Shown piece by piece: positions 797-10,418 of a stretch of 21,439 nucleotides of DNA. The stretch spans positions 1 to 21,439 of IMG/VR virus record IMGVR_UViG_3300007509_000072. One strand, written 5' to 3'. The notes below the pieces were generated by a model that did not search any database, was not told the origin of the DNA, and worked only from the letters and a program-made list of their open reading frames with translations. Made by a program: the position numbers and the translations under genes. Positions within the stretch are counted from its first letter, which is position 1; the number at the start of each line of letters is the position of its first letter. This DNA is from a virus.

Positions 797-877
797 ATGC
801 CAAAAATTAACAAAGATTTGATCCAGATCAAATCTTTTTATATAATATATGATATGAGGAAAAAATTAAATGCCTAA
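797..877 (+). CDS. 26-codon leader reading frame spanning a hairpin
   Basis: ATG at 797 follows a near-perfect Shine-Dalgarno, AGGAGG at 783-788, and the frame closes at TAA 875-877. Codons 6-14 lie on the palindrome at 812-837. The stop falls just after the start codon of the next gene (870), so a ribosome finishing this frame would end on top of that start. The first codons (M P K I) copy the first codons of the downstream gene (M P K I I K), as does the ribosome site before them. The frame is therefore either a translated leader affecting the hairpin and downstream initiation, or the remnant of the original gene start split by insertion of the hairpin-promoter unit. The peptide has no recognisable domain. 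Confidence 0.35.
   Translation: MPKINKDLIQIKSFYIIYDMRKKLNA
812..837 (+). terminator. 26-bp palindrome with T-tract, terminator-like, copy 1
   Basis: AAAGATTTGATC (812-823) pairs perfectly with GATCAAATCTTT (826-837), separated by CA, and a run of T follows to 839. In RNA this is a long stem ending in U residues, as in an intrinsic terminator, although it is A/T-rich and so weaker than a classical one. A reverse-complement copy lies at 1988-2015. The right half also lies in the spacer of a promoter whose -10 is at 841-846, so termination and re-initiation would be coupled. Confidence 0.6.
818..846 (+). promoter_or_regulatory. Sigma70-like promoter embedded in hairpin copy 1
   Basis: TTGATC (818-823) and a perfect TATAAT (841-846) are separated by exactly 17 bases. 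The -35 matches the consensus at four of six positions and is part of the left arm of the palindrome. Transcription would begin around 853 and serve the glycine-rich adhesin gene at 870, leaving a leader of about 17 bases containing GAGGA at 856-860. The A/T richness of the region makes chance matches to -10 common, but the spacing and position after a terminator are as expected for a real promoter. Confidence 0.45.
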
Positions 878-1559
878 AATAATTAAAGTCGCAAAAGGAT
901 CTTTTACAACAGCAGATATTACTGTTGACTCAGACGGAAGAGTTATTACAGCTTCTTCAGGATCAGGTGGTGCAAATTTAGTTGCAACATTTGGAGAAAC
1001 AGGTCCTGCTTCAGGAACATACACGGCACAACCAGGTGCTAATTATATAGTTGCTTACATAGGCGGAGGCGGTGGAGGCGCTGGAAGAAGTCCTGGTACC
1101 ATAAACGGAGCTGCTGGAGGCTTTGCTGCTTATGCAACACCTATTACACAACCTTACTCTAAAGCTTATTCAATTGGAGCTAGAGGAACTGGACAACAGG
1201 GACAAGGTGGTGGTGGTAATGCTGGAGGAGCGACTACTTTTGGTTCTCCTGCAACAGTAACTTCAAACGGTGGTGGTGGCGGTGGAGGTCCTGGTGGATC
1301 TCAAGGAAGTGTTGGAACTGTTTCTGGGGAAACTATGGATTTAACTAGTATAGGAAGTTCTACTAAAGGTTTAATGTATAACAAAAGTATAAGAAGACAA
1401 ATGGGTACAGATATTATAATGGACTCACCAAGTAATTTTGATAAGGATAACCGTACAGTATATCAAGGCCAAGGCGGAGCACAAGCAAACATAAGTTCTG
1501 AAGGTGGAGCACCAGGTGGATCTGGTTTCATCTATGTTTACGAAAACATAGGTTCTTAA
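870..1559 (+). CDS. Glycine-rich phage adhesin / tail fibre tip protein
   Basis: A 229-residue protein. Residues 1-35 form a short N-terminal section ending in SSGSGG. Residues 60-145 contain several poly-glycine runs separated by short polar segments (YIGGGGGGAG, GQGGGGNAGG, SNGGGGGGG). The C-terminus ends in PGGSGFIYVYE. This layout matches the glycine-rich domain common in phage tail fibre tips (Pfam Gly_rich_2 type, from memory), and resembles the polyglycine-helix adhesins of T-even phages in principle. The likely role is receptor binding on the host surface. ATG 870 has GAGGA at 856-860. A hairpin-promoter unit precedes it and a reverse-complement copy follows the next gene, so this gene and its partner could be exchanged as a unit. 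Receptor specificity cannot be predicted. Confidence 0.6.
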   Translation: MPKIIKVAKGSFTTADITVDSDGRVITASSGSGGANLVATFGETGPASGTYTAQPGANYIVAYIGGGGGGAGRSPGTINGAAGGFAAYATPITQPYSKAYSIGARGTGQQGQGGGGNAGGATTFGSPATVTSNGGGGGGGPGGSQGSVGTVSGETMDLTSIGSSTKGLMYNKSIRRQMGTDIIMDSPSNFDKDNRTVYQGQGGAQANISSEGGAPGGSGFIYVYENIGS

Positions 1560-1561
1560 TT

Positions 1562-1984
1562 ATGGCAAAAATAGTAATGTCAGCGTTAGAAGATGGTGGA
1601 GTTTATAAAGTTTTTGCTGATCAAGCAGAATTAGATGCTTCACACATAGTACAATCTGCATATACAATTGTTGATTTGTCTGATGCTGATTTAGAAAAAG
1701 TTTTAGAAGAAACAGCAACCTTTAAAGTTACGGATGGAGTTTTAGGTGTTGTTGACATATCTACTACTTGGAACAAAGAAGAGTATAAAAATGCTAAAGA
1801 CAAACTTTTAGTGGTTTACAATAGTATGGATGATAAAACTAAAAAAGCTTCTTTAGAAAGTTTTATAGAAACTGTTAATGGCATAGACATAGATTCTTTA
1901 ACAATAGATTCATCAGTATCTTTTTGGAAATACGTAAAATCAATAAACGGCAACGTCGGTTATCACCCTTTACAATTATTATAA
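1562..1984 (+). CDS. Hypothetical protein downstream of adhesin
   Basis: A 140-residue acidic protein that starts two bases after the adhesin gene stops. It has no clear ribosome site of its own, so translation is probably coupled. The N-terminal third looks like a small alpha/beta unit (KVFADQAELDAS, YTIVDLSDADLEKVLEE). The C-terminal half is mostly helical and charged, with KNAKDKLLVVYNSMDDKTKKASL. There is no signal peptide or membrane segment. I do not recognise the family. Small genes directly after phage adhesins often encode assembly chaperones for the fibre, and that is a reasonable guess from position only. The gene is followed at once by the terminator-like palindrome at 1988-2015, so the adhesin and this gene seem to form a two-gene transcription unit. 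Confidence 0.45.
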   Translation: MAKIVMSALEDGGVYKVFADQAELDASHIVQSAYTIVDLSDADLEKVLEETATFKVTDGVLGVVDISTTWNKEEYKNAKDKLLVVYNSMDDKTKKASLESFIETVNGIDIDSLTIDSSVSFWKYVKSINGNVGYHPLQLL

Positions 1985-1987
1985 TTA

Positions 1988-2015
1988 AAAAGATTTGATC
2001 TGGATCAAATCTTTT
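1988..2015 (+). terminator. Palindromic terminator-like hairpin, copy 2 (inverted copy of 812-837)
   Basis: AAAAGATTTGATC (1988-2000) pairs with GATCAAATCTTTT (2003-2015) around a central TG. The central dinucleotide is TG here and CA in copy 1, so the two 26-bp cores are exact reverse complements of each other. The hairpin lies four bases after the stop codon at 1984, the right place for a terminator of the adhesin unit. Its right arm ends in TTTT. Confidence 0.65.
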
Positions 2016-2022
2016 ATCCCCC

Positions 2023-2051
2023 TTTACTATCCCCTTTACAAATTATATAAT
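2023..2051 (+). promoter_or_regulatory. Sigma70-like promoter P1 for the oxygenase cassette
   Basis: TTTACT (2023-2028) and TATAAT (2046-2051) are separated by 17 bases. The stretch TTATATAATATAT around the -10 is the same as that around the -10 after hairpin copy 1, so the hairpin plus promoter behaves as a repeated unit. It precedes the first oxygenase gene at 2099. It overlaps a second candidate promoter that is shifted by 12 bases. Confidence 0.45.
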
Positions 2052-2063
2052 ATATACTATAGT
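2035..2063 (+). promoter_or_regulatory. Sigma70-like promoter P2 for the oxygenase cassette
   Basis: TTTACA (2035-2040) and TATAGT (2058-2063) are separated by 17 bases, each matching consensus at five of six positions. The -35 lies in the second copy of a 12-base-period direct repeat of CCCCTTTAC (2019-2027 and 2031-2039), which also supplies the -35 of P1. A second direct repeat, TATAGTGC, lies at 2058-2065 and 2069-2076. Transcription from P2 would leave a leader of roughly 30 bases that includes AAAGG just ahead of ATG 2099. Confidence 0.4.
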
Positions 2064-2098
2064 GCCTTTATAGTGCTCGAAAGAATTATAAAGGTACA

Positions 2099-2650
2099 AT
2101 GCAAAACTTATTTGTAATAGAAGATTTTTATACTGCTGAAAATTTCGGCTTAATGTCTAATTTTCAAAGAACGTGTAACCTGAAAGGTTTACATGTCCCT
2201 CAAAATATTTATTACCCTTCAAGACTAGAAGCTTATCCTACATGGGAATCTGATAATTTTGAAAAAGATCAAATAGAATACAACCTTACAGAAAAAACTT
2301 TAATTCAAAAAACAGGGTTTAAAATTAAAAAAATTAAATCTTTTTTTAGAAAAGTATTAACTTCTGAACTTTTAAAATCTCCCTACAAAGGAAGAAATGA
2401 ATCCCTTATCCATCAAGATTCCGACAATTTTGATTGGGCTGGTGTAGTATATTTTGATAGTTTTAGTATAGAGGATGGAACAAGACTATATTCATATAGA
2501 GAACAAGTAAAGCCTGATATTATAATTGGATCTAAGCCCAATAGATGTATAGTTTTTAAAGCTGCCTTATTTCATTCGGCGGGAATAGATTGGAATAAAG
2601 ATTCGAGGACTGTGCAAACATTTTTTTTAAAAACGGATGAGAATGTTTGA
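2099..2650 (+). CDS. 2OG-Fe(II) oxygenase-like protein (HxD type), cassette gene 1
   Basis: A 183-residue protein, first of the oxygenase cassette, with AAAGG a few bases before the ATG. The C-terminal half fits the double-stranded beta-helix of 2-oxoglutarate/Fe(II) dioxygenases: His105-Gln-Asp107 in LIHQDSDNFDWAGVVYF as the first two iron ligands, His159 in ALFHSAG as the third, and Arg170 in DSRTVQTFF at the position that binds the 2OG carboxylate. Residues 1-30 (FVIEDFYTAENFGLM) look like the usual N-terminal helix of such proteins. The expected reaction is Fe(II)- and O2-dependent hydroxylation or oxidation of an unknown substrate, giving succinate and CO2. No signal peptide is seen, so it should act in the host cytoplasm or inside virions. 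Its 3' end overlaps the next gene. Confidence 0.65.
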   Translation: MQNLFVIEDFYTAENFGLMSNFQRTCNLKGLHVPQNIYYPSRLEAYPTWESDNFEKDQIEYNLTEKTLIQKTGFKIKKIKSFFRKVLTSELLKSPYKGRNESLIHQDSDNFDWAGVVYFDSFSIEDGTRLYSYREQVKPDIIIGSKPNRCIVFKAALFHSAGIDWNKDSRTVQTFFLKTDENV

Positions 2651-3389
2651 AAATAAAATAGAATTTAGTGCTCATGAAATATACGTCAATTTAAAAGACA
2701 GTTATCCTATACCAGCAAAAAATAATTTACCTGAATGGTATAAAAAATTAGATCATACTTGGCCAGATAAAACTGTTAAAGGGTGTGTGCCTTTTTTAGA
2801 TTCAATGTCAGCGGGGTATATTTTAAAATTACCTCAAGATTTTTATTTTAACCACAACTTTACAAATGAAAAAGGGGAGAAAGATACTATTTTTGCGTGT
2901 CCAATGTCAGAAGAATCTGGTTTTTTAAATTTACATTTTGTTAATTTGAACAAACAAGGAAATGAACATCATTCTGGAAAACAAATTAAAGGCAGTCCAC
3001 ATTTAAAAAAAAATAATAACCAAAGCGTTTTAAAGTTTCTGAATCCTTGGAAAATAAAAACACCTTCAGGATATTCTTGTTTATTTGTTCCTCCACTTAA
3101 TAATTCAGACGATAGATTTAGTATAATACCAGGTATTGTTGATACCGATACATATAATCAAGAGATAAATTTCCCATTCCTCATAAATGGAGATAAGTAT
3201 GAAACTTTAGAAACAACTCTGAAAAAAGGAACCCCTTATGTTCAAGTAATACCTTTTAAAAGAGAAAGTTGGAAAATGGTGATTAAAGGAAAAAAATCAC
3301 AAGACCTGGTTAAAGAAAAATTTGGATTCTCTTTAAAATTTTTACATAAATATAAAACATTATACTGGAATAAAAAATCATGGAAATAG
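2637..3389 (+). CDS. DUF6065-like protein of unknown function, cassette gene 2
   Basis: A 250-residue protein starting at ATG 2637 or, equally possible, ATG 2643. Both overlap the upstream gene. It has no HxD...H iron motif. The order of phrases, SYPIPAKNNLPEWYKKL near the start, CVPFLDSMSAGYILKLP, then SGYSCLFVPPLNN, GIVDTDTYN, INFPFLING, and finally KKGTPYVQVIPFKRESWKM, matches a family I know from marine phage and bacterial genomes annotated as DUF6065 (recalled, not searched). It is probably a globular, largely beta cytoplasmic protein. Members tend to occur near phage oxygenase genes, so a partner, substrate carrier or product-processing role for the neighbouring enzymes is possible but unproven. 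It overlaps the next start by ten bases. Confidence 0.55.
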   Translation: MRMFENKIEFSAHEIYVNLKDSYPIPAKNNLPEWYKKLDHTWPDKTVKGCVPFLDSMSAGYILKLPQDFYFNHNFTNEKGEKDTIFACPMSEESGFLNLHFVNLNKQGNEHHSGKQIKGSPHLKKNNNQSVLKFLNPWKIKTPSGYSCLFVPPLNNSDDRFSIIPGIVDTDTYNQEINFPFLINGDKYETLETTLKKGTPYVQVIPFKRESWKMVIKGKKSQDLVKEKFGFSLKFLHKYKTLYWNKKSWK

Positions 3390-3946
3390 ATAGTTTTATT
3401 AGAACGTATAAAATCATAGAAAAAAAACCGTTGTCTAAATTTTTAGCTTACGTTGAAAAAACAAAAACCTTTAAGGCAGCCCCTATTGTTACTAAAAAAG
3501 GATTGCAAGTTAATACTGAAGTCAGGGATGTTAAAACGTTATTTTTAAATGATTTAGAAAAGAGTTTAACTAATGTTCATTGGTACAATTATTTTAATAG
3601 CTGTTTTTTAAGATGTTTGGAAGAATACAAACGAGAAACTAATTCTGAGTTCCTGCATTATCAAAATAATTTTGAAATGAGCGTTTTAAAATATGATATA
3701 AATAATTTTTATACATGGCATACTGACCACGGTTTTACTACTCCGAGAACCATGAGTTGCATTTTATTGTGTAATGACGACTATGAAGGTGGGGACTTGA
3801 CATTTAAATTACCCAACCACGAAGAGTTTTGTGTTGAAGGTAAACCAGGTGAAGTAATAATGTGGCCTAGTAATTTCATGTACCCTCATTGCGTTAAACC
3901 TGTAACCAGTGGAAATAGAATAACAGTTGTTGGATGGTTGGTATAA
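3380..3946 (+). CDS. Prolyl-4-hydroxylase-like 2OG-Fe(II) oxygenase, cassette gene 3
   Basis: A 188-residue protein and the clearest oxygenase of the set. The iron ligands are His114 and Asp116 in YTWHTDHGF and His170 in FMYPHCVKPV. Arg180 in SGNRITVVGWL is placed to bind 2OG. Between them, the phrases MSCILLCNDDYEGGDLTF and GKPGEVIMWPSNF are typical of the P4Hc / PKHD-like branch of prolyl-4-hydroxylase-type enzymes. Residues 1-100 form the charged N-terminal helical part. The expected activity is hydroxylation of a protein side chain or a small molecule, with 2OG and O2 as co-substrates. The substrate is unknown. It starts ten bases before the stop of gene 2 and ends in TAATG, sharing its stop with the start of gene 4, so translation is coupled on both sides. 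Confidence 0.8.
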   Translation: MEIDSFIRTYKIIEKKPLSKFLAYVEKTKTFKAAPIVTKKGLQVNTEVRDVKTLFLNDLEKSLTNVHWYNYFNSCFLRCLEEYKRETNSEFLHYQNNFEMSVLKYDINNFYTWHTDHGFTTPRTMSCILLCNDDYEGGDLTFKLPNHEEFCVEGKPGEVIMWPSNFMYPHCVKPVTSGNRITVVGWLV

Positions 3947-4578
3947 TGAAACATAATGTGTGGCCTTTGTTTTCATCCCCTCTTTTTTTAATTGAAACTG
4001 ATTTAAAAAAAAATGAATTAAAGAAATTAGAACCAAAATTAAAAAAAGAAAAAACAATCCACAGTCCAATTAATAAACTTAGTGAGAACCCTAAACAAAA
4101 TAGTTTTAATACTAGTATAGAAGGAGTTTTACAAAAAGAGGAGTATGAAACTTTAAAAGATGCTGTCGTTAAATCCATAAGATGTATTAATGATAATTAT
4201 TTTAAATATAAAACTAATTTTATCATAAGTAAATCATGGGTGGGATGGGCTCCTGCAAAAAGCAGTTGTACTATTCACAGACATCAAAATTGTTTTTTAA
4301 GTGGAGTAGTTTATATTAAAGCAGAAGAAAACTGTGGAGATATTGAATTTGAAAACTTTAACCATAGGGACATATCAGTAGAACCTAGACACAAGAACAC
4401 TATTTATAATGTGGAACGTTTTCGGGTAACACCAAAACCAGGGTTACTGTTACTGTTTCCAAGTAATATGTATCATAAGATACATGAAAATAATTCAAAC
4501 AAAGACAGGATTTCTGTTCCTTTTGATGTTATGCCCACGTCTTTCTTAAATAAATATATTGAAAATAATGAAGTGTAA
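3946..4578 (+). CDS. 2OG-Fe(II) oxygenase of the TIGR02466 / 2OG-FeII_Oxy_5 type, cassette gene 4
   Basis: I chose ATG 3946, which shares TAATG with the upstream stop and gives a 210-residue protein beginning MKHNVWPLFSSPLFLIETDL, the usual N-terminus of this family. An in-frame ATG at 3934 would add four residues. Family signatures are His111-x-His113 in CTIHRHQNCFLSGVVYI, the strand CGDIEFEN, and PGLLLLFPSNMYHKIHENN with His177, followed by Arg188 in KDRISVPFDV. The family has His-x-His where most relatives have His-x-Asp. Which residues bind iron in it is not something I can settle. It is related to the products of 5089-5652, 5640-6119 and the minus-strand gene 7139-7708, suggesting duplication within the cassette. 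The substrate is unknown. Confidence 0.75.
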   Translation: MKHNVWPLFSSPLFLIETDLKKNELKKLEPKLKKEKTIHSPINKLSENPKQNSFNTSIEGVLQKEEYETLKDAVVKSIRCINDNYFKYKTNFIISKSWVGWAPAKSSCTIHRHQNCFLSGVVYIKAEENCGDIEFENFNHRDISVEPRHKNTIYNVERFRVTPKPGLLLLFPSNMYHKIHENNSNKDRISVPFDVMPTSFLNKYIENNEV

Positions 4579-5092
4579 ACTAATTAAAAATTTTTTGACA
4601 AAAGAAGAAATTAATCTTTGTACAGATTACTGTAGAATACAACACCGACAAAACAAATCTAATTTTGATAATCAAAACAGTAATTTGGATTCTAGTTTCT
4701 ATGCAGATCCTTTAATGGAATCCATGTTGTTAAACAAAAGAAAGTTAGTTGAAAAACATTCAAAACTGAAGTTGCTACCAACTTATTCTTATTTTAGAGT
4801 CTACACTTATAAATCAGATTTACCAAAACATACAGATAGACCCTCTTGTGAAATAAGTGTTACAGTGCATATAAACTCAGACGGAACACCTTGGGAAATA
4901 TATGCTGGAGATAAAAAATACAGAACTAAACCAGGAGACGCTATTTTATATAAAGGTTGTGAAGTTGAACATTGGAGAGAACCTTTTGAAGGCGACTGGC
5001 ATGCACAAACTTTTTTACATTATGTAAATTCTGAGGGACCCTATAAAGATTTTTATAAGGATCAAAGAAGAATGTGGGGAGATAAAAAATGA
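4568..5092 (+). CDS. 2OG-Fe(II) oxygenase (P4H-like), cassette gene 5
   Basis: ATG 4568 gives 174 residues. A TTG nine bases earlier is in frame but less likely. It overlaps the upstream gene by 11 bases. The motif set is His88 and Asp90 in DLPKHTDRPSCEISVTVHI, His135 in GCEVEHWREPF, and the C-terminal strand WHAQTFLHYVN, where an Arg or Lys 2OG anchor is not obvious. The phrase KPGDAILYKGCEVEHWREP is one I recognise from phage and bacterial 2OG oxygenases of prolyl-hydroxylase type. The N-terminus (KLIKNFLTKEEINLCTDYC) is the standard opening helix. The chain ends with a charged tail (FYKDQRRMWGDKK). Without a clear basic 2OG anchor, its co-substrate binding may differ from its neighbours. 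ATGA couples it to gene 6. Confidence 0.72.
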   Translation: MKCKLIKNFLTKEEINLCTDYCRIQHRQNKSNFDNQNSNLDSSFYADPLMESMLLNKRKLVEKHSKLKLLPTYSYFRVYTYKSDLPKHTDRPSCEISVTVHINSDGTPWEIYAGDKKYRTKPGDAILYKGCEVEHWREPFEGDWHAQTFLHYVNSEGPYKDFYKDQRRMWGDKK

Positions 5093-5652
5093 GCTTTTTA
5101 GAAATTATGTTTTGTCATTCAATATATCATTCAACACTATCCAACGAAAAAATTAAAAAACAATTATTAAAAATCGTGTACGCTTTAGAAAAAAATGTTG
5201 AATCAAATAAAAAAACCAACAAAGGGGGATATCAAAAAGAGTTAAACTGTAAAGATTTATTCTCAAATTTAATATCTAAAGAAATTAATAAATATGAGAA
5301 ACTTTTAAATTTCAATAAGAAATTAAAGCTGGATAATTTATGGTGTAATATTAATTACAAAAACAGTTATAATGTATCCCATGTACATCCCCAAGCTCAT
5401 TTTTCAGGAGTCTATTATTTAAAGACGCCAACAAATTGTGGTCAATTAATTTTCACTAATCCCAATACATTTGTTGGAATGCACTCTGAAATGGAACAAG
5501 CAAGTGAGCACCCTAATTTCAAATCTCATTTTTATATAGAACCTGTTGAAAACCTATTGTTAATTTTTCCTTCTTACTTATTACATGAAGTGGAAATGAA
5601 CGATTCTAATAAAAAAAGAATATCAATATCTTTTAATTTATGCATCAAATAA
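5089..5652 (+). CDS. 2OG-Fe(II) oxygenase of the TIGR02466 / 2OG-FeII_Oxy_5 type, cassette gene 6
   Basis: A 187-residue protein whose ATG overlaps the previous stop as ATGA, a standard coupled start. Signatures are His98-x-His100 in VSHVHPQAHFSGVYYL, then CGQLIFTNPNT, then NLLLIFPSYLLHEVEMND with His166, and Arg177 in KKRISISFNL. The arrangement is the same as in gene 4 and in the minus-strand gene. The first 75 residues are Lys/Asn-rich and helical (residues 20-70), consistent with a lid over the barrel. The next gene is evidently a diverged copy of this one: it repeats the CG-x-I/L-x-F strand, the SNKKR segment and the general length. It is predicted to be cytoplasmic with unknown substrate. 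Confidence 0.75.
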   Translation: MSFLEIMFCHSIYHSTLSNEKIKKQLLKIVYALEKNVESNKKTNKGGYQKELNCKDLFSNLISKEINKYEKLLNFNKKLKLDNLWCNINYKNSYNVSHVHPQAHFSGVYYLKTPTNCGQLIFTNPNTFVGMHSEMEQASEHPNFKSHFYIEPVENLLLIFPSYLLHEVEMNDSNKKRISISFNLCIK

Positions 5653-6119
5653 ATATATTTACAAAATCATTATTTTTTACTGATCAAAAAGATTCGGAAT
5701 TTAAAAAAGAAACTGTGAAAACAAAACAAGTAGATGTTAAAAAATTTAATAAAATTATTTCTAATTTTGTAAATGGACTATGTAAAAACTATTGTATAGA
5801 TTCTCAAAAAATTGAGATTGACAATGTTTCTTTTGTTGAAGATTTAAAAAATGAAAGTAATTTAAATCAAAAATTTAAAGATTTTTTATTTCAAGGACTG
5901 TATCTAATTGATGTAGATGAAGATTGTGGTTTAATATCTTTTAAAAGAGAACCTGAAAAAATCATATTTATTCATACAGATTTTATCCCTGTTTTTAATT
6001 TCATAGCCAGAGAAAACACAGTGGTGGTAATTCCTTTTAATGTTTCATTTGATCTTAAAGAAAATAAATCAAATAAAAAAAGACAATATATACACTTTAC
6101 TTTAAAATATGCCTACTGA
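5640..6119 (+). CDS. Degenerate oxygenase-fold paralogue lacking metal ligands, cassette gene 7
   Basis: A 159-residue protein overlapping the upstream gene by 13 bases. It aligns with gene 6 over the catalytic half: FQGLYLIDVDEDCGLISFK against FSGVYYLKTPTNCGQLIFT, and SNKKRQYIHFTL against SNKKRISISFNL. At the metal sites it has Gln77 and Phe79 in place of the two histidines of HVH, and Phe137 in place of the distal histidine. The 2OG arginine (Arg148) is kept. The frame is open with no frameshift, so selection seems to have kept the fold while the chemistry was lost. It may be a pseudoenzyme that scaffolds, regulates or dimerises with an active paralogue, or binds the same substrate as a decoy. 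Catalysis is unlikely. Confidence 0.6.
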   Translation: MHQINIFTKSLFFTDQKDSEFKKETVKTKQVDVKKFNKIISNFVNGLCKNYCIDSQKIEIDNVSFVEDLKNESNLNQKFKDFLFQGLYLIDVDEDCGLISFKREPEKIIFIHTDFIPVFNFIARENTVVVIPFNVSFDLKENKSNKKRQYIHFTLKYAY

Positions 6120-6636
6120 TAAAGAAGTAACTTTAATAGATGATATTTTATCACAAAAAGAAAACATAGGGTTGATCAAAAAACTTTGTTACCATCAATG
6201 GTATTTAACAAAATGTTTAGACTATGAAAATTTAATGCCTCCCTTGTTCGCAGGGAGAGGTGGGGGTTTTAGTGTTGAAACTTTACGAGATGGCAAGCCT
6301 TTTGATTCACCTCTTAATAAAGAAGCATATAAAATTACTAAAAAAATCTGTGAGCAATTAGATATTAAAAAGTATAAAATAAAAAGATTTTTATGGAATA
6401 TGTATTTTCCTAGAAATCATACTGACTTTCATAAAGACGAATACACCGACGATTTTTTAAGCATATTATATAATCCACACACGACCGATGGAGGCACTTT
6501 TATTGACAATAAATTTTATGTTGATAAATTAGGCCAAGCAAAAGTTTATAAAAGTATGGTTGAACATAAAGGCAACCCTCCTTCAAAAGATGCAGTTCGT
6601 TTTAATCTTAATATTTTAATAAAATGTTTAAAATAA
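6109..6636 (+). CDS. 2OG-Fe(II) oxygenase-like protein (HxD type), cassette gene 8
   Basis: A 175-residue protein that overlaps gene 7 by 11 bases. The core motif is clear: His108 and Asp110 in HTDFHKDEYTDDFLSILYN, a strand with DGGTFIDNKFY, His153 in KSMVEHKGNPP, and Arg164 in DAVRFNLNILI as the 2OG anchor. The segment MYFPRNHTDFH before the motif is the strand that leads into the barrel. The first 60 residues contain a glycine/arginine patch (FAGRGGGFSVETLRDG) that could contribute to substrate binding. It is not close to the PF13759-like members and looks like a separate lineage of the superfamily, so the cassette holds several unrelated oxygenase types rather than only tandem copies. The substrate is unknown. 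Confidence 0.7.
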   Translation: MPTDKEVTLIDDILSQKENIGLIKKLCYHQWYLTKCLDYENLMPPLFAGRGGGFSVETLRDGKPFDSPLNKEAYKITKKICEQLDIKKYKIKRFLWNMYFPRNHTDFHKDEYTDDFLSILYNPHTTDGGTFIDNKFYVDKLGQAKVYKSMVEHKGNPPSKDAVRFNLNILIKCLK

Positions 6637-7112
6637 AAGATAAATTTTTACCTGAAGATGAGTTTTTAAAAATAAAAAATACCTTACTCACTAACACCTT
6701 CCCCTGGTACTATGTAAATAATGTGGCGTATCCAGGAGATAATGCTATAGGAAATTTTTATTTAAGCCATACCGTATATGAAGATGGAACCATATTAAGT
6801 CAACCAGCCCTTAATTTACTTGGACCTGTTCTTTTAAAATTAAACATAAAAAAACTATTTCGAGTAAAATGTAATTTTTATCCTCACACCCCTAAGATAA
6901 AAAAACACGCATTGCATCGTGATCATGATGATCCTAAATGCAATAGTGCTATACTTTACATTAATAACAATAATGGGTACACAGGATTTTCAAACCGTAA
7001 AATAAAATCTGTTGAAAATAGGGTGTTATTTTTTAAAGCACATAAAAAACATCACAGCACAACATGCACTGATCAAGATGCAAGAATCAATGCAAACTTT
7101 ATTTATTTTTAA
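6624..7112 (+). CDS. 2OG-Fe(II) oxygenase-like protein (HxD type), cassette gene 9
   Basis: A 162-residue protein, last of the + strand cassette, overlapping gene 8 by 13 bases. His98 and Asp100 in KKHALHRDHDDPKCNSAILYIN are the first two iron ligands, His143 or His144 in KKHHSTTC the third, and Arg154 in DARINANFIYF the 2OG anchor. The N-terminus (KIKDKFLPEDEFLKIKNTL) is the standard opening. NNGYTGFSN between the two halves is typical of phage oxygenases of this kind, which I know from cyanophage genomes. The protein is short for the superfamily, with little beyond the barrel. It ends 26 bases before the stop of the convergent gene on the other strand, with only a weak 5-bp inverted repeat (7117-7138) between them. 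Confidence 0.7.
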   Translation: MFKIKDKFLPEDEFLKIKNTLLTNTFPWYYVNNVAYPGDNAIGNFYLSHTVYEDGTILSQPALNLLGPVLLKLNIKKLFRVKCNFYPHTPKIKKHALHRDHDDPKCNSAILYINNNNGYTGFSNRKIKSVENRVLFFKAHKKHHSTTCTDQDARINANFIYF

Positions 7113-7138
7113 AACCTAAAGTGTATATATTGTCTTTA

Positions 7139-7708
7139 TCAGTAGACATATTTTATAGTTCTTTCTTGTAATAAATCATCTCTGATCTCTTTCACATCAA
7201 AATTAAAAGAAATGATACTTCTTCTTTTTTTTGTCTGATTTACACCAGATCTGTGTATAACATGTGATGGAAAAACAATAAAATCACCTTCTATAACTCT
7301 TAATGAAATAGCTTTATTTAAATTAAGAGGATCTAATAATTGAGTGTATTGATGATCATCAAACTCTAGATAATACACACCTGTAAAATTATTGGCATGA
7401 ATATGCCAACCGTGTGTGCCTTGATTACCGTATTGTTGAAACCATGTTTCATGTATTTTAATTGATTTAAAACCAATTTTATTCACCATTTCTAACAGTT
7501 GATTATGAGAATATGGAAATACGTATTTAACCCAGGGTCTGTTAAAATCAGAAGCTTGGTCCCAATCTAGCTTATGAAAAACATCTTCAAATTCTATTTT
7601 GCTGTTTTTAGTTTTTGATTGATTAATTAGAGATAATAGGTTATTTTTAAGGTTTAAATGATTATTAAAGTGCGCCTTTAAAAGCGGGGTTCCTATGGAA
7701 AGATTCAT
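7139..7708 (-). CDS. 2OG-Fe(II) oxygenase of the TIGR02466 / 2OG-FeII_Oxy_5 type, minus strand, cassette gene 10
   Basis: A 189-residue protein and the only convincing gene on the minus strand. It starts MNLSIGTPLLKAHF, the family's usual opening. Signatures are His102-x-His104 in HGWHIHANNFTGVYYLEF, then EGDFIVFPSHVIHRSG with His152, and Arg162/Arg163 in KKRRSIISFNFDV. It is a clear relative of genes 4 and 6 and is better preserved than gene 7. It converges on gene 9 and diverges from the tail hub gene at 7775. A promoter-like TAGACA-N16-TATAGT on the minus strand ends 11 bases before the ATG, and no Shine-Dalgarno is visible, so its mRNA may be nearly leaderless. The opposite orientation suggests separate control or independent acquisition. 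Confidence 0.75.
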   Translation of the reverse strand: MNLSIGTPLLKAHFNNHLNLKNNLLSLINQSKTKNSKIEFEDVFHKLDWDQASDFNRPWVKYVFPYSHNQLLEMVNKIGFKSIKIHETWFQQYGNQGTHGWHIHANNFTGVYYLEFDDHQYTQLLDPLNLNKAISLRVIEGDFIVFPSHVIHRSGVNQTKKRRSIISFNFDVKEIRDDLLQERTIKYVY

Positions 7709-7774: not shown

Positions 7775-9913
7775 ATGCTACAGAAAATTAACATACAACC
7801 TGGAATCAATAAACAAGTCACAGCAACGGGCGGCGAGGGCCAATGGGTTGATGGTGACTATGTTCGTTTTAGATATGGCTCACCTGAAAAAATAGGTGGT
7901 TGGGCACAGTTAGGAGATATAACTTTAACCGGTAGAACAACTGCCATGCACCAATTTGTTAATTCAAGTGGTATTAAATATTCAGCACTAGGTACAAACA
8001 GAATTTTATATGTGTATTCAGGAGGCGCATTTTATGATATAACTCCTATTAAAGCTACAACAACATTAACAAATGCATTTACAACAACAAACGGAGACGC
8101 AACAGTCACGATCACGTTTGCATCTGATCATAATATTACTCAGTACGATATCATTAAGCTGGATAATTTTACCACTATTACCAATTCTGATTTTGGCTCT
8201 TCTGATTTTGATGATAACGTATTCATGGTTGCAACCGTCCCTACTTCAACAACGATTACAGTTGAAATGGGATCGAATGAATCAGGATCAGGAGCATCCA
8301 CATCAGGTGGAATAAGAGTTCAACACTACTATTCGATTGGACCTTCAGTTGAAGAATCAGCTGCTGGTTGGGGATTAGGAGCATGGGGAGGTACTGCAGC
8401 AGGTGCAGTTACATCTACTTTAGATGGAGCATTAACAGATTCTTCCACAAGTATTGTACTTGATGATTCATCAGGATTTCCTGCTTCAGGAACAGTTTTA
8501 ATAGATGATGAAAGAATTGTTTATACAACAAACACTACAGGTACTGGAACTTTATCAGGTTTAACTAGAGGATCAGATAACACAACAGCCGCATCACACT
8601 CTGATGCTGCTACTGTAACCAATGCATCTGATTATACTAAATGGGGTGCATCACAAACAGGTGATATTGTAACAGCTCCTGGTATTTGGTCATTAGATAA
8701 TTTTGGTAATAAACTTATTGCAACTATTTCTGATGGTGCAACTTTTGAATGGGATTCTAATGCAACAGGTGCTACATCAACCAGAGCAACGACTGTATCC
8801 GGAGCACCAACAGCTTCACAGTTTACTTTAGTTTCTACACCGGATAGACACTTAGTTTGTTTTGGAACAGAAACTACAATTGGCACAACATCTACTCAAG
8901 ATGATATGTATGTTAGATGGTCTTCACAAGAATCATTAACTACTTGGACTCCAACTTCAACTAATACTGCCGGTACACAAAGACTTGCAGATGGTACAAG
9001 AATTGTTGGAGCAATTAGAGGTCGTGATGCAATTTATATTTGGACTGATACAGCTTTATTTATTATGAAATTTGTTGGTCCACCATTTACTTTCTCGTTT
9101 CAACAAGTTGGAACTAACTGTGGATTAATTGGACAAAACGCTGCAGTTGAAGTTGATGGATCAGCTTACTGGATGTCAGAAAATGGTTTCTTTAGATACA
9201 CTGGACAATTACAATCATTACCATGTTTAGTTGAAGACTATGTTTACGATGGCTTAGCAGATGTACCTAGACAACATATTTATGCAGGTTTAAATAATTT
9301 ATTTGGTGAAGTCACATGGTTTTATCCAGGTAGTGGAGCTACAGCTAATTCTAGATCGGTTACATACAATTATATGGATTCGAGCAGCGAGCGGCCTATA
9401 TGGACTATAAGTTCACTTGCAAGAAGTACTTGGGCAGATTCATCTATATTTGGTAAACCACATGGAACTGAATATGATTCAAGTGCTACAAGTGATTCAA
9501 CAGTTGGCAACACCGATGGTGTTACAACTTATTATGAACATGAAACTGGAACTAATCAAATTAAAGCAGGCGCAACAACTGCTGTTCAAGCTAGTATTGA
9601 ATCAGGAGATTTTGACTTAGACCAAAAAGGTTTAGGTGGAGACGGTGAATATATGATGAAAATTAGAAGAGTCATACCTGACTTTTTAACTCAAACTGGA
9701 GATGCAAGAGTTACATTAAACTTAAAAAATTATCCAACAGATGCACAAGCAAGTTCATCTTTAGGACCATTTACATCAACAACAACTACAACTAAAATAG
9801 ATACCCGTGCTAGAGCTAGAGCAATAGCTTTAAAAGTAGATAATACTGGTTTAACTCAGCACTGGAAATTAGGTACTTTTAGATTAGATATACAACCGGA
9901 TGGAAGAAGATAA
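7775..9913 (+). CDS. Podophage tail hub / DNA-stabilisation protein, P22 gp10-like
   Basis: A 712-residue structural protein. The opening INIQPGINKQVTATGGEGQW followed by VDGDYVRFRYGSPEKIGGW is a signature I know from tail proteins of marine podophages related to P22 gp10. Repeated short beta strands suggest a propeller or hub: WSLDNFGNKLIATI (about 305-318), then DMYVRWSSQESLTTWTP, then SAYWMSENGFFRYTG. Residues 219-286 are a separate small beta domain (LDDSSGFPASGTVLIDDER, then GTGTLSGLTRGSDNTTAASH) inserted between GWGLGAWGG and the WSLDNFG strand. It would sit at the portal end of the tail and help retain packaged DNA and attach fibres. There is no obvious strong ribosome site. It is the first + gene after the oxygenase cassette. 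A T7 tubular gpB-like assignment is the alternative. Confidence 0.6.
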   Translation: MLQKINIQPGINKQVTATGGEGQWVDGDYVRFRYGSPEKIGGWAQLGDITLTGRTTAMHQFVNSSGIKYSALGTNRILYVYSGGAFYDITPIKATTTLTNAFTTTNGDATVTITFASDHNITQYDIIKLDNFTTITNSDFGSSDFDDNVFMVATVPTSTTITVEMGSNESGSGASTSGGIRVQHYYSIGPSVEESAAGWGLGAWGGTAAGAVTSTLDGALTDSSTSIVLDDSSGFPASGTVLIDDERIVYTTNTTGTGTLSGLTRGSDNTTAASHSDAATVTNASDYTKWGASQTGDIVTAPGIWSLDNFGNKLIATISDGATFEWDSNATGATSTRATTVSGAPTASQFTLVSTPDRHLVCFGTETTIGTTSTQDDMYVRWSSQESLTTWTPTSTNTAGTQRLADGTRIVGAIRGRDAIYIWTDTALFIMKFVGPPFTFSFQQVGTNCGLIGQNAAVEVDGSAYWMSENGFFRYTGQLQSLPCLVEDYVYDGLADVPRQHIYAGLNNLFGEVTWFYPGSGATANSRSVTYNYMDSSSERPIWTISSLARSTWADSSIFGKPHGTEYDSSATSDSTVGNTDGVTTYYEHETGTNQIKAGATTAVQASIESGDFDLDQKGLGGDGEYMMKIRRVIPDFLTQTGDARVTLNLKNYPTDAQASSSLGPFTSTTTTTKIDTRARARAIALKVDNTGLTQHWKLGTFRLDIQPDGRR

Positions 9914-10077
9914 TGGCTAGAATTGTACAATCATTAACACAACCTACTGATAAATACGATCAAACAGTTCAACAATCATTTGTTAGAGATGTAGATAGTA
10001 TTGTAACAAAATTAAACTCAACTTTTCAACAGGACTTAAAGGATGAATTACAAGCCTTTGATTTCTTTTTAGCATAA
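9913..10077 (+). CDS. Small conserved phage protein, 54 residues
   Basis: The ATG at 9913 shares TAATG with the tail hub stop, and the TAA at 10075-10077 shares TAATG with the next start, so it is locked between two genes. The product begins MARIVQSLTQP and is helical and charged (QSFVRDVDSIVTKLNSTFQQ, then DLKDELQAFDFFLA), with no cysteine and no membrane segment. A near-identical small protein follows the tail hub gene in other marine podophages, from memory, so it is likely real and virion-related, possibly a short coiled-coil tail or head completion piece. Codon use matches its structural neighbours. Function is unknown. Confidence 0.65.
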   Translation: MARIVQSLTQPTDKYDQTVQQSFVRDVDSIVTKLNSTFQQDLKDELQAFDFFLA

Positions 10078-10418
10078 TGGCAAATAGTTTCGTAAATAAA
10101 AAAGCAGATTTAACCAGTAATAGTGCAACGACACTATATACAGTGCCTTCTTTTTCTACTGCTGTTATTAAATCTATTATAGTATCTGAAGATTCAGGAA
10201 ATGCTGATACAATTACAGTGACTTTAACTGATACTTCTGATAATGTATTCAGCCTTTTTAAAACAAAAGCAATATCGGCAAATGCCACAACAGAGCTGTT
10301 ATCAGCACCTCTAGTCGCACAGGAGAGCGAAGTAATAAAGGTGACTGCAGCTACTGCAAATAGACTACATGTAGTCCTTTCAGCCTTAGAAATTAAGCCT
10401 AGAGAAGTTACAACATAG
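10077..10418 (+). CDS. Small beta-rich phage structural protein, paralogue of 422-781
   Basis: A 113-residue protein whose start overlaps the previous stop. Strand order follows the product of 422-781: TAVIKSIIVSEDSG against VRIDTILLANDDG, then NVFSLFKTKAISANATTELL against TYYKIASTISVPADSTLSLI, then NRLHVVLSALEI against LDYHVSYVEM. Identity is low but length and pattern agree. It has Thr/Ser-rich turns and no membrane segment. The likely role is a beta-sandwich virion component of the neck or tail. It is followed by a 76-bp gap containing a candidate promoter, so it appears to close the tail hub transcription unit. Confidence 0.6.
   Translation: MANSFVNKKADLTSNSATTLYTVPSFSTAVIKSIIVSEDSGNADTITVTLTDTSDNVFSLFKTKAISANATTELLSAPLVAQESEVIKVTAATANRLHVVLSALEIKPREVTT

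Follow-up and report, generated by a model that had tools for sequence, protein, structure and literature searches.

Co-inheritance of an oxygenase-fold gene cassette with a Gly-rich tail-tip adhesin in a virus fragment related to HTVC023P-type pelagiphages

A cassette of ten genes (g1-g10, positions 2099-7708) lies in the tail module of IMG/VR virus record IMGVR_UViG_3300007509_000072, a linear virus fragment of 21,439 bases that was analysed over its full length and is called the window here. The cassette encodes nine proteins of the 2-oxoglutarate (2OG)-Fe(II) oxygenase fold, eight with an intact metal motif and one without metal ligands, together with one protein of a dUTPase-like fold. 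It is flanked on the left by a Gly-rich tail-tip protein (870-1559) and a gene for 140 amino acids (1562-1984) and on the right by a virion structural gene (7775-9913). In related phages the oxygenase repertoire is co-inherited with the tail-tip adhesin, or fibre, gene, independently of the gene at the right flank. A link between the cassette and a virion protein had been suggested by the original prediction, which was made from the window's letters, and Mantel tests now lend it statistical backing. The cassette may serve to modify the tail-tip adhesin, a function to which we give about an even chance. The window is a fragment of a marine phage related to HTVC023P-type pelagiphages; a megablast search against phage isolates gave no DNA-level match, and the nearest isolates at the protein level are Pelagibacter phages HTVC027P and HTVC023P, phage 023Pt_psg01 and phage DSL-LC04.

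Co-inheritance was assessed with similarity matrices of the oxygenase set, the fibre gene and the 7775-type gene for 118 non-redundant loci. Over these loci the oxygenase set tracks the fibre (partial Mantel r 0.645, p 0.001) and has no association with the 7775-type gene (partial Mantel r -0.004, p 0.53). Pairs of loci with alike 7775-type genes and unlike fibres share oxygenases at 0.148 against a background of 0.156 (1685 pairs), and pairs with alike fibres and unlike 7775-type genes share them at 0.76 (19 pairs, most of which are the window's own cassette group). The oxygenase that adjoins the 7775-type gene also follows the fibre (0.35 versus -0.04), and the gene above the fibre contributes nothing to the signal. 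Sampling bias was rejected as the source of this pattern because the result stayed in a subset of 103 loci fetched only via 7775-type genes, from which g2-fetched contigs, isolates and the window had been removed (fibre 0.66, 7775-type gene -0.07).

The exchanged unit spans 870 to 7708. Phages with a different set (typically four oxygenases and different fibres) have a 7775 gene 91-100% identical to that of the window, and phages with the same cassette have adhesins 64-83% and g10 proteins 80-81% identical to those of the window, with 7775 genes only 46-66% identical. To the left, the gene at 422-781 shows 97% identity to its counterparts in L094 and L108 (L numbers denote loci and contigs used for comparison), though their adhesins are 82% and 73% identical. 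The slot was surveyed in 228 related loci in which it is closed, and holds no oxygenase in 49 loci, one in 48, two in 42, three in 36, four in 21, five in 9, six in 6, seven in 2, eight in 5 and nine in 10. The window is thus at the top of a continuum in oxygenase number. Nine-gene arrays with other members in another order occur in L182, L194, L198 and L306, which indicates that the slot was filled several times independently. The density of the cassette had been taken as a sign of a pathway or serial modification system; the density is real, and a fixed serial pathway is not supported, as the set varies from zero to nine oxygenases in relatives. Such variation in number and kind looks like a tailored set more than a conserved pathway. 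Two observations on the surveyed loci stand apart from this. In L114, L115 and L136 the slot oxygenases and a methyltransferase-like gene run opposite to the tail genes, as do the oxygenases of HTVC027P. Three loci filed under bacterial genomes (L362, L363 and L365; Maricaulis, Microbacteriaceae and Chitinophagaceae metagenome-assembled genomes) look like binning contamination, since L362 clearly consists of phage tail DNA and the other two probably do as well.

All ten cassette open reading frames are present at the coordinates given in the original prediction; g1-g9 lie on the plus strand, each overlapping the next by a few bases, and are followed by g10 (7139-7708) on the minus strand. The complete set occurs in L090, L091, L092, L094, L095 and L096 (about four distinct sequences), mostly at 60-95% protein identity, and eight or nine of the ten genes occur in L097, L099-L102 and L108; g9 is missing from some carriers. 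L010 and L112, which come from other samples, match the window at 100% identity wherever they cover it. The same gene order in independent contigs from other samples rules out an assembly artefact, so the clustering is no accident of assembly, a possibility that the original prediction had raised against itself. The ratio of nonsynonymous to synonymous substitution rates (dN/dS) is 0.03-0.43 across all ten genes in the pairs computed, and is lowest for the 4568 gene, g5 (about 0.07); purifying selection acts on all of them. Compared with L090 and L094, the window carries the g8-g9 segment in inverted orientation. The borders of this segment (6079-6125 and 7113-7159) carry two inverted duplications, of 21 nucleotides at 100% identity and 27 nucleotides at 93% identity, in the order A-B...A'-B', and through the inversion g8 acquired a new start region, a copy of the g10 end. 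The L090 and L094 borders that were examined have no counterpart of these repeats in the other orientation. A single inversion through staggered breaks would be expected to leave such a footprint. A phase-variation switch was rejected because the repeats occur in one orientation only, that of the window.

The oxygenase pattern described for g1 and g3-g10 in the original prediction (HxD or HxH, a distal His and an Arg) was recovered as described, with agreement from profile search and profile comparison and with g7 excepted for its ligands. The motif is HxD...H in g1, g3, g5, g8 and g9 and HxH...H in g4, g6 and g10. At least two oxygenase lineages are present, as had been proposed. Placement of most products in the double-stranded beta-helix oxygenase fold is supported by Pfam for g3, g4, g6 and g10, by profile comparison for g1, g8 and g9 and by predicted structure for g7; g5 is the weakest case, with the motif and a moderate profile link. 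Profile-profile comparison joins g1, g8 and g9 to the Pfam-recognised oxygenases with best probabilities of 79-100%, and g5 to g4 at 64% (E 6.5e-5) and to g3 at 44%; the probabilities of control families against the oxygenase families were all 0-2%. Direct sequence matches in the PDB are absent for g5 and g9.

The individual genes differ in how readily they are recognised. A prolyl-4-hydroxylase-type oxygenase is encoded by g3 (3380-3946; PF13640 9.6e-14), with H114-T-D116, H170 and R180. Two genes are of the TIGR02466 type: g4 (3934-4578; H115-x-H117, H181, R192; PF13759 3.9e-20) and g6 (5089-5652; H98-x-H100, H166, R177; PF13759 1.8e-26) score 80.5 and 117.9 bits and pass the curated TIGR02466 cut-off of 62.5 bits. 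The TIGR02466-like g10, at the right end of the module (H102-x-H104, H152, R163; PF13759 7.3e-9), passes the PF13759 cut-off (36.4 versus 27) and fails that of TIGR02466 (34.4 versus 62.5 bits). The remaining oxygenase-fold genes are g1 (2099-2650; H105-x-D107, H159, R170; phrog_1644 8e-11 and phrog_274 8e-5, with a profile link of 96% to the 6624 gene), g5 (4568-5092; H88-T-D90, H135; phrog_2954 2.7e-51), g8 (6109-6636; H108-x-D110, H153, R164; phrog_274 1.1e-15) and g9 (6624-7112; H98-x-D100 or H101-x-D103, H143/H144, R154; phrog_274 6.5e-42), the last two within the inverted segment. Across cassette-bearing contigs the metal triad and distal Arg are invariant in g1, g4, g6, g8, g9 and g10, and HxD...H is conserved in g5; in g3, H114 and D116 are invariant, and H170 and R180 fall outside the stretch common to truncated sequences. 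Since the aligned PF13759 relatives share the HxH form, it is a family trait; we know of no tested enzyme in that family. A second slot family, comprising L195:5150-5677 and 16 relatives, matches the g10 profile at 98% and apparently lacks the usual motif; it includes a protein of 023Pt_psg01 (L007:9823-10326), and HTVC023P has a similar protein (L008:8536-9039).

Several database labels point elsewhere. PHROG names the 6109 and 6624 families "DNA endonuclease V", the 4568 family "ferrochelatase" and the 2099 family "minor coat protein". An endonuclease V identity for g8 and g9 was rejected, since no such Pfam or NCBIfam family appears at E up to 1 and the oxygenase triad and profile links are found instead. 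A ferrochelatase identity for g5 was likewise set aside, as Pfam gave nothing at E up to 1 and the protein has the oxygenase HxD...H motif instead. A role in anti-phage defence or counter-defence was also dismissed, as PADLOC gave only a generic CRISPR-associated "2OG" label.

The ligand-less member, g7 (5640-6119), has lost all three metal ligands and keeps R148. Its AlphaFold model is a double-stranded beta-helix with a predicted local distance difference test (pLDDT) score of 86.5, closest to the solved TIGR02466 proteins 2rg4 and 3bvc (Z 13.8), and profile-profile comparison links it to the TIGR02466 group at 92-96%. Every ortholog examined is without any ligand and retains R148. The original prediction had called this gene a dead copy. 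That description does not survive: a decaying pseudogene is contradicted by a dN/dS of 0.06-0.40 and by ligand loss common to all orthologs examined, and purifying selection points to a maintained pseudoenzyme, which would fit a non-catalytic partner. A precedent is TlxIJ, a heterodimer of two such oxygenase-type proteins in which one subunit is non-catalytic. Its structure (PDB 7vbq) is among the structure matches of g7.

The tenth gene, g2 (2637-3389; phrog_7084 1.6e-48), had been described as DUF6065-like. It is, on sequence evidence, a distant branch of DUF6065, so the relationship stands; the protein scores below the Pfam gathering cut-off for that family (PF19541, 15.3 versus 26.6 bits), and its fold, a point that the description had left open, is that of a dUTPase. 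A weak DUF6065 match is present in 13 of 15 g2 relatives, and the HRTV-15 homolog passes at 29.2. The AlphaFold model is moderate (pLDDT 68), and its best PDB matches (Foldseek, VIA-align) are dUTPases, with Z 10.9 over 119 residues at a root-mean-square deviation of 2.7. Sequence support for the dUTPase relationship is weak (hhalign E 0.004, probability 8.5%; E 0.0011 and 21% with more sequences), and profile comparison gave 0-2% against everything except dUTPases; g2 has no PF00692 match and no profile match by sequence to solved structures. In register with a Maricaulis dUTPase, AGLDL aligns with AGYIL in g2, PEGF..PRSGLA with PSGY..PPLNN, PGTVDADYRGEI with PGIVDTDTYNQEI and RGERIAQMVI with KGTPYVQVIPF. 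The metal-binding Asp of motif I and the Ser of motif II are lost, and GIVDTD of motif III is kept. An active dUTPase was rejected on account of the altered motifs I and II. Given these motifs, the moderate model and the weak sequence support, g2 is read as a dUTPase-fold protein (beta-clip) that has lost the metal-binding Asp, has an altered motif II and is not a dUTPase. It shares the fold and partial motifs II-IV with the dUTPase/dCTP deaminase group (e.g., PDB 3ecy) and differs in its length of 250 amino acids with long insertions and in the lost Asp and Ser. Homologs with about 30-35% identity occur in about 46 records of haloarchaeal tailed viruses. In the two that were inspected (Hafunaviridae, L366:8902-9786 and L367:8902-9723) the g2 homolog has as neighbours a ribonucleotide reductase gene and the end of the tail operon where the adhesin lies, and both viruses also encode a separate true dUTPase.

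The flanking genes frame the module. The adhesin-like protein to its left (plus strand, identified by composition and alignment) has 229 amino acids, 24% of them Gly, with a Gly-rich C-terminus; in L099 and L104 it is joined to a full-length fibre N-terminus as one protein. This adhesin is the presumed substrate of the cassette. The small plus-strand gene directly after it keeps its position in cassette carriers and in L362, and its product is, by position, a possible fibre assembly factor. The plus-strand gene at the right border, outside the module, matches phrog_3287 ("stabilization protein", 1.4e-105). Paralogs of phrog_1276 at 422-781 and 10077-10418 flank the module on both sides, and their profiles match each other.

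In the proposed mechanism the cassette would provide a cytoplasmic, late, virion-associated enzyme set matched to a Gly/Pro-rich tail-tip adhesin; late expression is suggested by the position of the cassette, and hydropathy reveals no evident signal peptide or transmembrane segment. Eight Fe(II)/2OG oxygenases would add hydroxyl groups to side chains in the adhesin or fibre tip during its synthesis and folding, g7 would serve a TIGR02466-type neighbour as a partner subunit without catalysis or as a scaffold for substrate binding, and g2 would be an accessory. The benefit could be a stabilised tip, or a receptor-binding surface changed beyond what twenty amino acids permit. Adhesin modification is favoured because of the match between set and fibre, a correlation with fibre composition, transferases in the slot that use hydroxyl groups and recurrence in another phage family. 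Oxygenase number rises with the Gly/Pro content of the fibre (rho 0.56/0.58 in 47 families and 0.56/0.47 in 23 coarse families). Additional slot genes encode a sulfotransferase (8 loci), an adenylyl sulfate (APS)-kinase-like protein (in 2 loci that also have a sulfotransferase), carbamoyltransferase C-terminal domains and methyltransferase-like and glycosyltransferase-like proteins. The arrangement recurs in an unrelated phage, the T4-like cyanophage P-TIM40 (33110-44437; L376:7111-18438), where three Gly-rich tips and a gene for 135 amino acids are followed in a row by two tryptophan halogenases, then a homolog of g2, then four or more oxygenases; the halogenases may take part in the same chemistry. 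In Sf-CH8 an oxygenase cluster lies a few kilobases behind the tail fibre genes. Among the slot loci, L180:7313-9639 holds a sulfotransferase and an APS-kinase-like gene in the oxygenase tail slot and L301:5014-6200 has both side by side, so that such a phage may make its own sulfate donor. L162:8889-9464 encodes a stand-alone carbamoyltransferase C-terminal domain of 191 amino acids (PF16861 1e-51) with no in-frame N-terminal domain.

Several observations weigh against adhesin modification. In one group (L012, L076 and L089) the oxygenases resemble one another and the fibres do not. The fibre and oxygenase genes sit together in a single variable block flanked by conserved genes, so linkage contributes to their co-inheritance. 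The effects of Gly and Pro cannot be separated in the fibre correlation, and the 46-53 loci of a fibre family that is rich in Gly and poor in Pro have only about one oxygenase, which makes Gly richness alone insufficient. Cyanophage oxygenases also sit far from tail genes. For a cyanophage with 24 oxygenase genes, the virion proteomics passage of the report names none as a virion protein (PMC9602691), and a modifying enzyme need not be packaged in the virion.

Co-inheritance with the fibre is also predicted if the enzymes act late on the receptor, that is, on the cytoplasmic precursor of a host surface molecule that the fibre recognises. Progeny would then avoid debris, the cell would be closed to superinfection, and set and fibre would match via the common receptor. 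Phages are known to alter receptors, and the sulfotransferase, carbamoyltransferase and glycosyltransferase-like slot genes fit glycan chemistry as well. Receptor modification is the main rival to adhesin modification; we regard it as unlikely, given that the window cassette is without a glycan-specific or membrane-bound enzyme, that the oxygenase folds are nearest to protein hydroxylases (prolyl 4-hydroxylases, for g7) and that SAR11 surface glycans are poorly characterised. Comparably improbable is hitch-hiking, in which a hypervariable slot gathers unrelated auxiliary metabolic genes that are tied to the fibre only by block exchange via conserved flanks, and in which the oxygenases serve varied ends such as 2OG/nitrogen signalling or the modification of nucleotides or host proteins. 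Phage 2OG oxygenases have been published as auxiliary metabolic genes (PMC3037559, PMC9599517, PMC9602691), slot content is strongly variable and the module borders coincide with conserved genes. Unlike random cargo, however, oxygenases nearly fill the slot (zero to nine, with the independent nines of L182, L194, L198 and L306), and both the fibre composition correlation and the recurrence behind Gly-rich tips in P-TIM40, from another phage family, speak against chance accumulation. A structural use of jelly-roll proteins as virion or assembly parts (chaperones or fibre collars), with catalysis secondary or lost, could accommodate the conserved, ligand-less g7, the second ligand-poor slot family (L195:5150-5677) and the minor coat protein name given to g1 by PHROG, but it is very unlikely because eight of nine members keep the full metal triad, which a structural role does not demand. 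A small-molecule pathway that oxidises one metabolite in succession, as in natural product clusters, has in its favour the several different oxygenases per operon and the P-TIM40 halogenases, yet is the least credible of these alternatives, with no core-forming enzyme (synthase, ligase or peptide precursor) recognised in or near the cassette, a gene number that varies freely and the fibre linkage left unexplained.

Adhesin modification might extend beyond this lineage. We suggest tentatively, as a proposal rather less probable than modification in the window itself, that phages carry exchangeable "adhesin maturation islands" composed of oxygenases, pseudo-oxygenases, sulfotransferases with APS kinase, carbamoyltransferases and halogenases. 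Such islands would be inherited with a Gly/Pro-rich tip and would install non-standard residues on the receptor-binding surface. Host recognition would then be set by chemistry as well as sequence, in a scheme that would recur in pelagiphage-like podoviruses and a T4-like cyanophage. Phage 2OG oxygenases are common, unexplained marine virus genes, and the fibre link points to a definite substrate candidate. If adhesin modification is correct, phage host range among the ocean's most abundant bacteria would depend on post-translational chemistry that is invisible to comparison of fibre sequences. The published reading of 4568-type genes as ferrochelatases tied to iron metabolism would also be corrected.

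Phage oxygenase clusters are already known, and the link to the adhesin appears to be new. Wittmers et al. (2022) described an HTVC023P-type lineage with eight non-orthologous oxygenases, often nearby and paired with ferrochelatases (PMC9599517). These pelagiphages represent the same lineage and gene families as the window; there the genes are treated as host-metabolism genes that are nearby "although not adjacent", whereas the window has an uninterrupted tail-module array tied to the fibre. HTVC023P gp67, annotated as a ferrochelatase, groups with the 4568 family, and the pelagiphage "ferrochelatase" genes of that study appear to belong to this family, for which the label is not supported and an oxygenase-fold protein is indicated instead. 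Sullivan et al. proposed that phage oxygenases act in 2OG/nitrogen control (PMC3037559), and passages of the cyanophage papers propose DNA repair or host metabolism (PMC9146016, PMC9602691). S-SCSM1, with 24 2OG-Fe(II) oxygenase genes (PMC9602691), and S-SZBM1, with nine (PMC9146016), resemble the window in having many divergent PF13640/PF13759 genes per phage. Unlike the window array, the S-SZBM1 genes are scattered through the genome in the relevant passage of its report, and the oxygenase passages of both reports draw no link to fibres. Our literature coverage was partial and found no paper that ties these oxygenase genes to tail-tip modification. The TIGR02466/PF13759 proteins of marine bacteria (PDB 3bvc and 2rg4) are, in sequence profile and in fold, the closest solved structures for the g4/g6/g7 group and are single bacterial genes of unknown function, in contrast to the clustered phage genes of the window. 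A further likeness concerns the adhesin. The phage protein gp38 is a small separate tail-tip protein with Gly-rich runs, encoded at the end of the fibre operon. By general description the window adhesin is likened to gp38-type adhesins (PP01 gp38, PMC12892980), for which the searches made turned up no accompanying modification enzymes. The closest working analogy is provided by PBCV-1 vCPH (PDB 5c5t), which is among the structure matches of g7 (Z 12.0), and by the collagen-modifying enzymes of mimivirus (PMC9546862), virus enzymes that act on repetitive Gly-rich proteins. Those systems belong to eukaryotic viruses and use one or a few enzymes on Gly-X-Y collagen, whereas the window adhesins are Gly-rich without collagen repeats.

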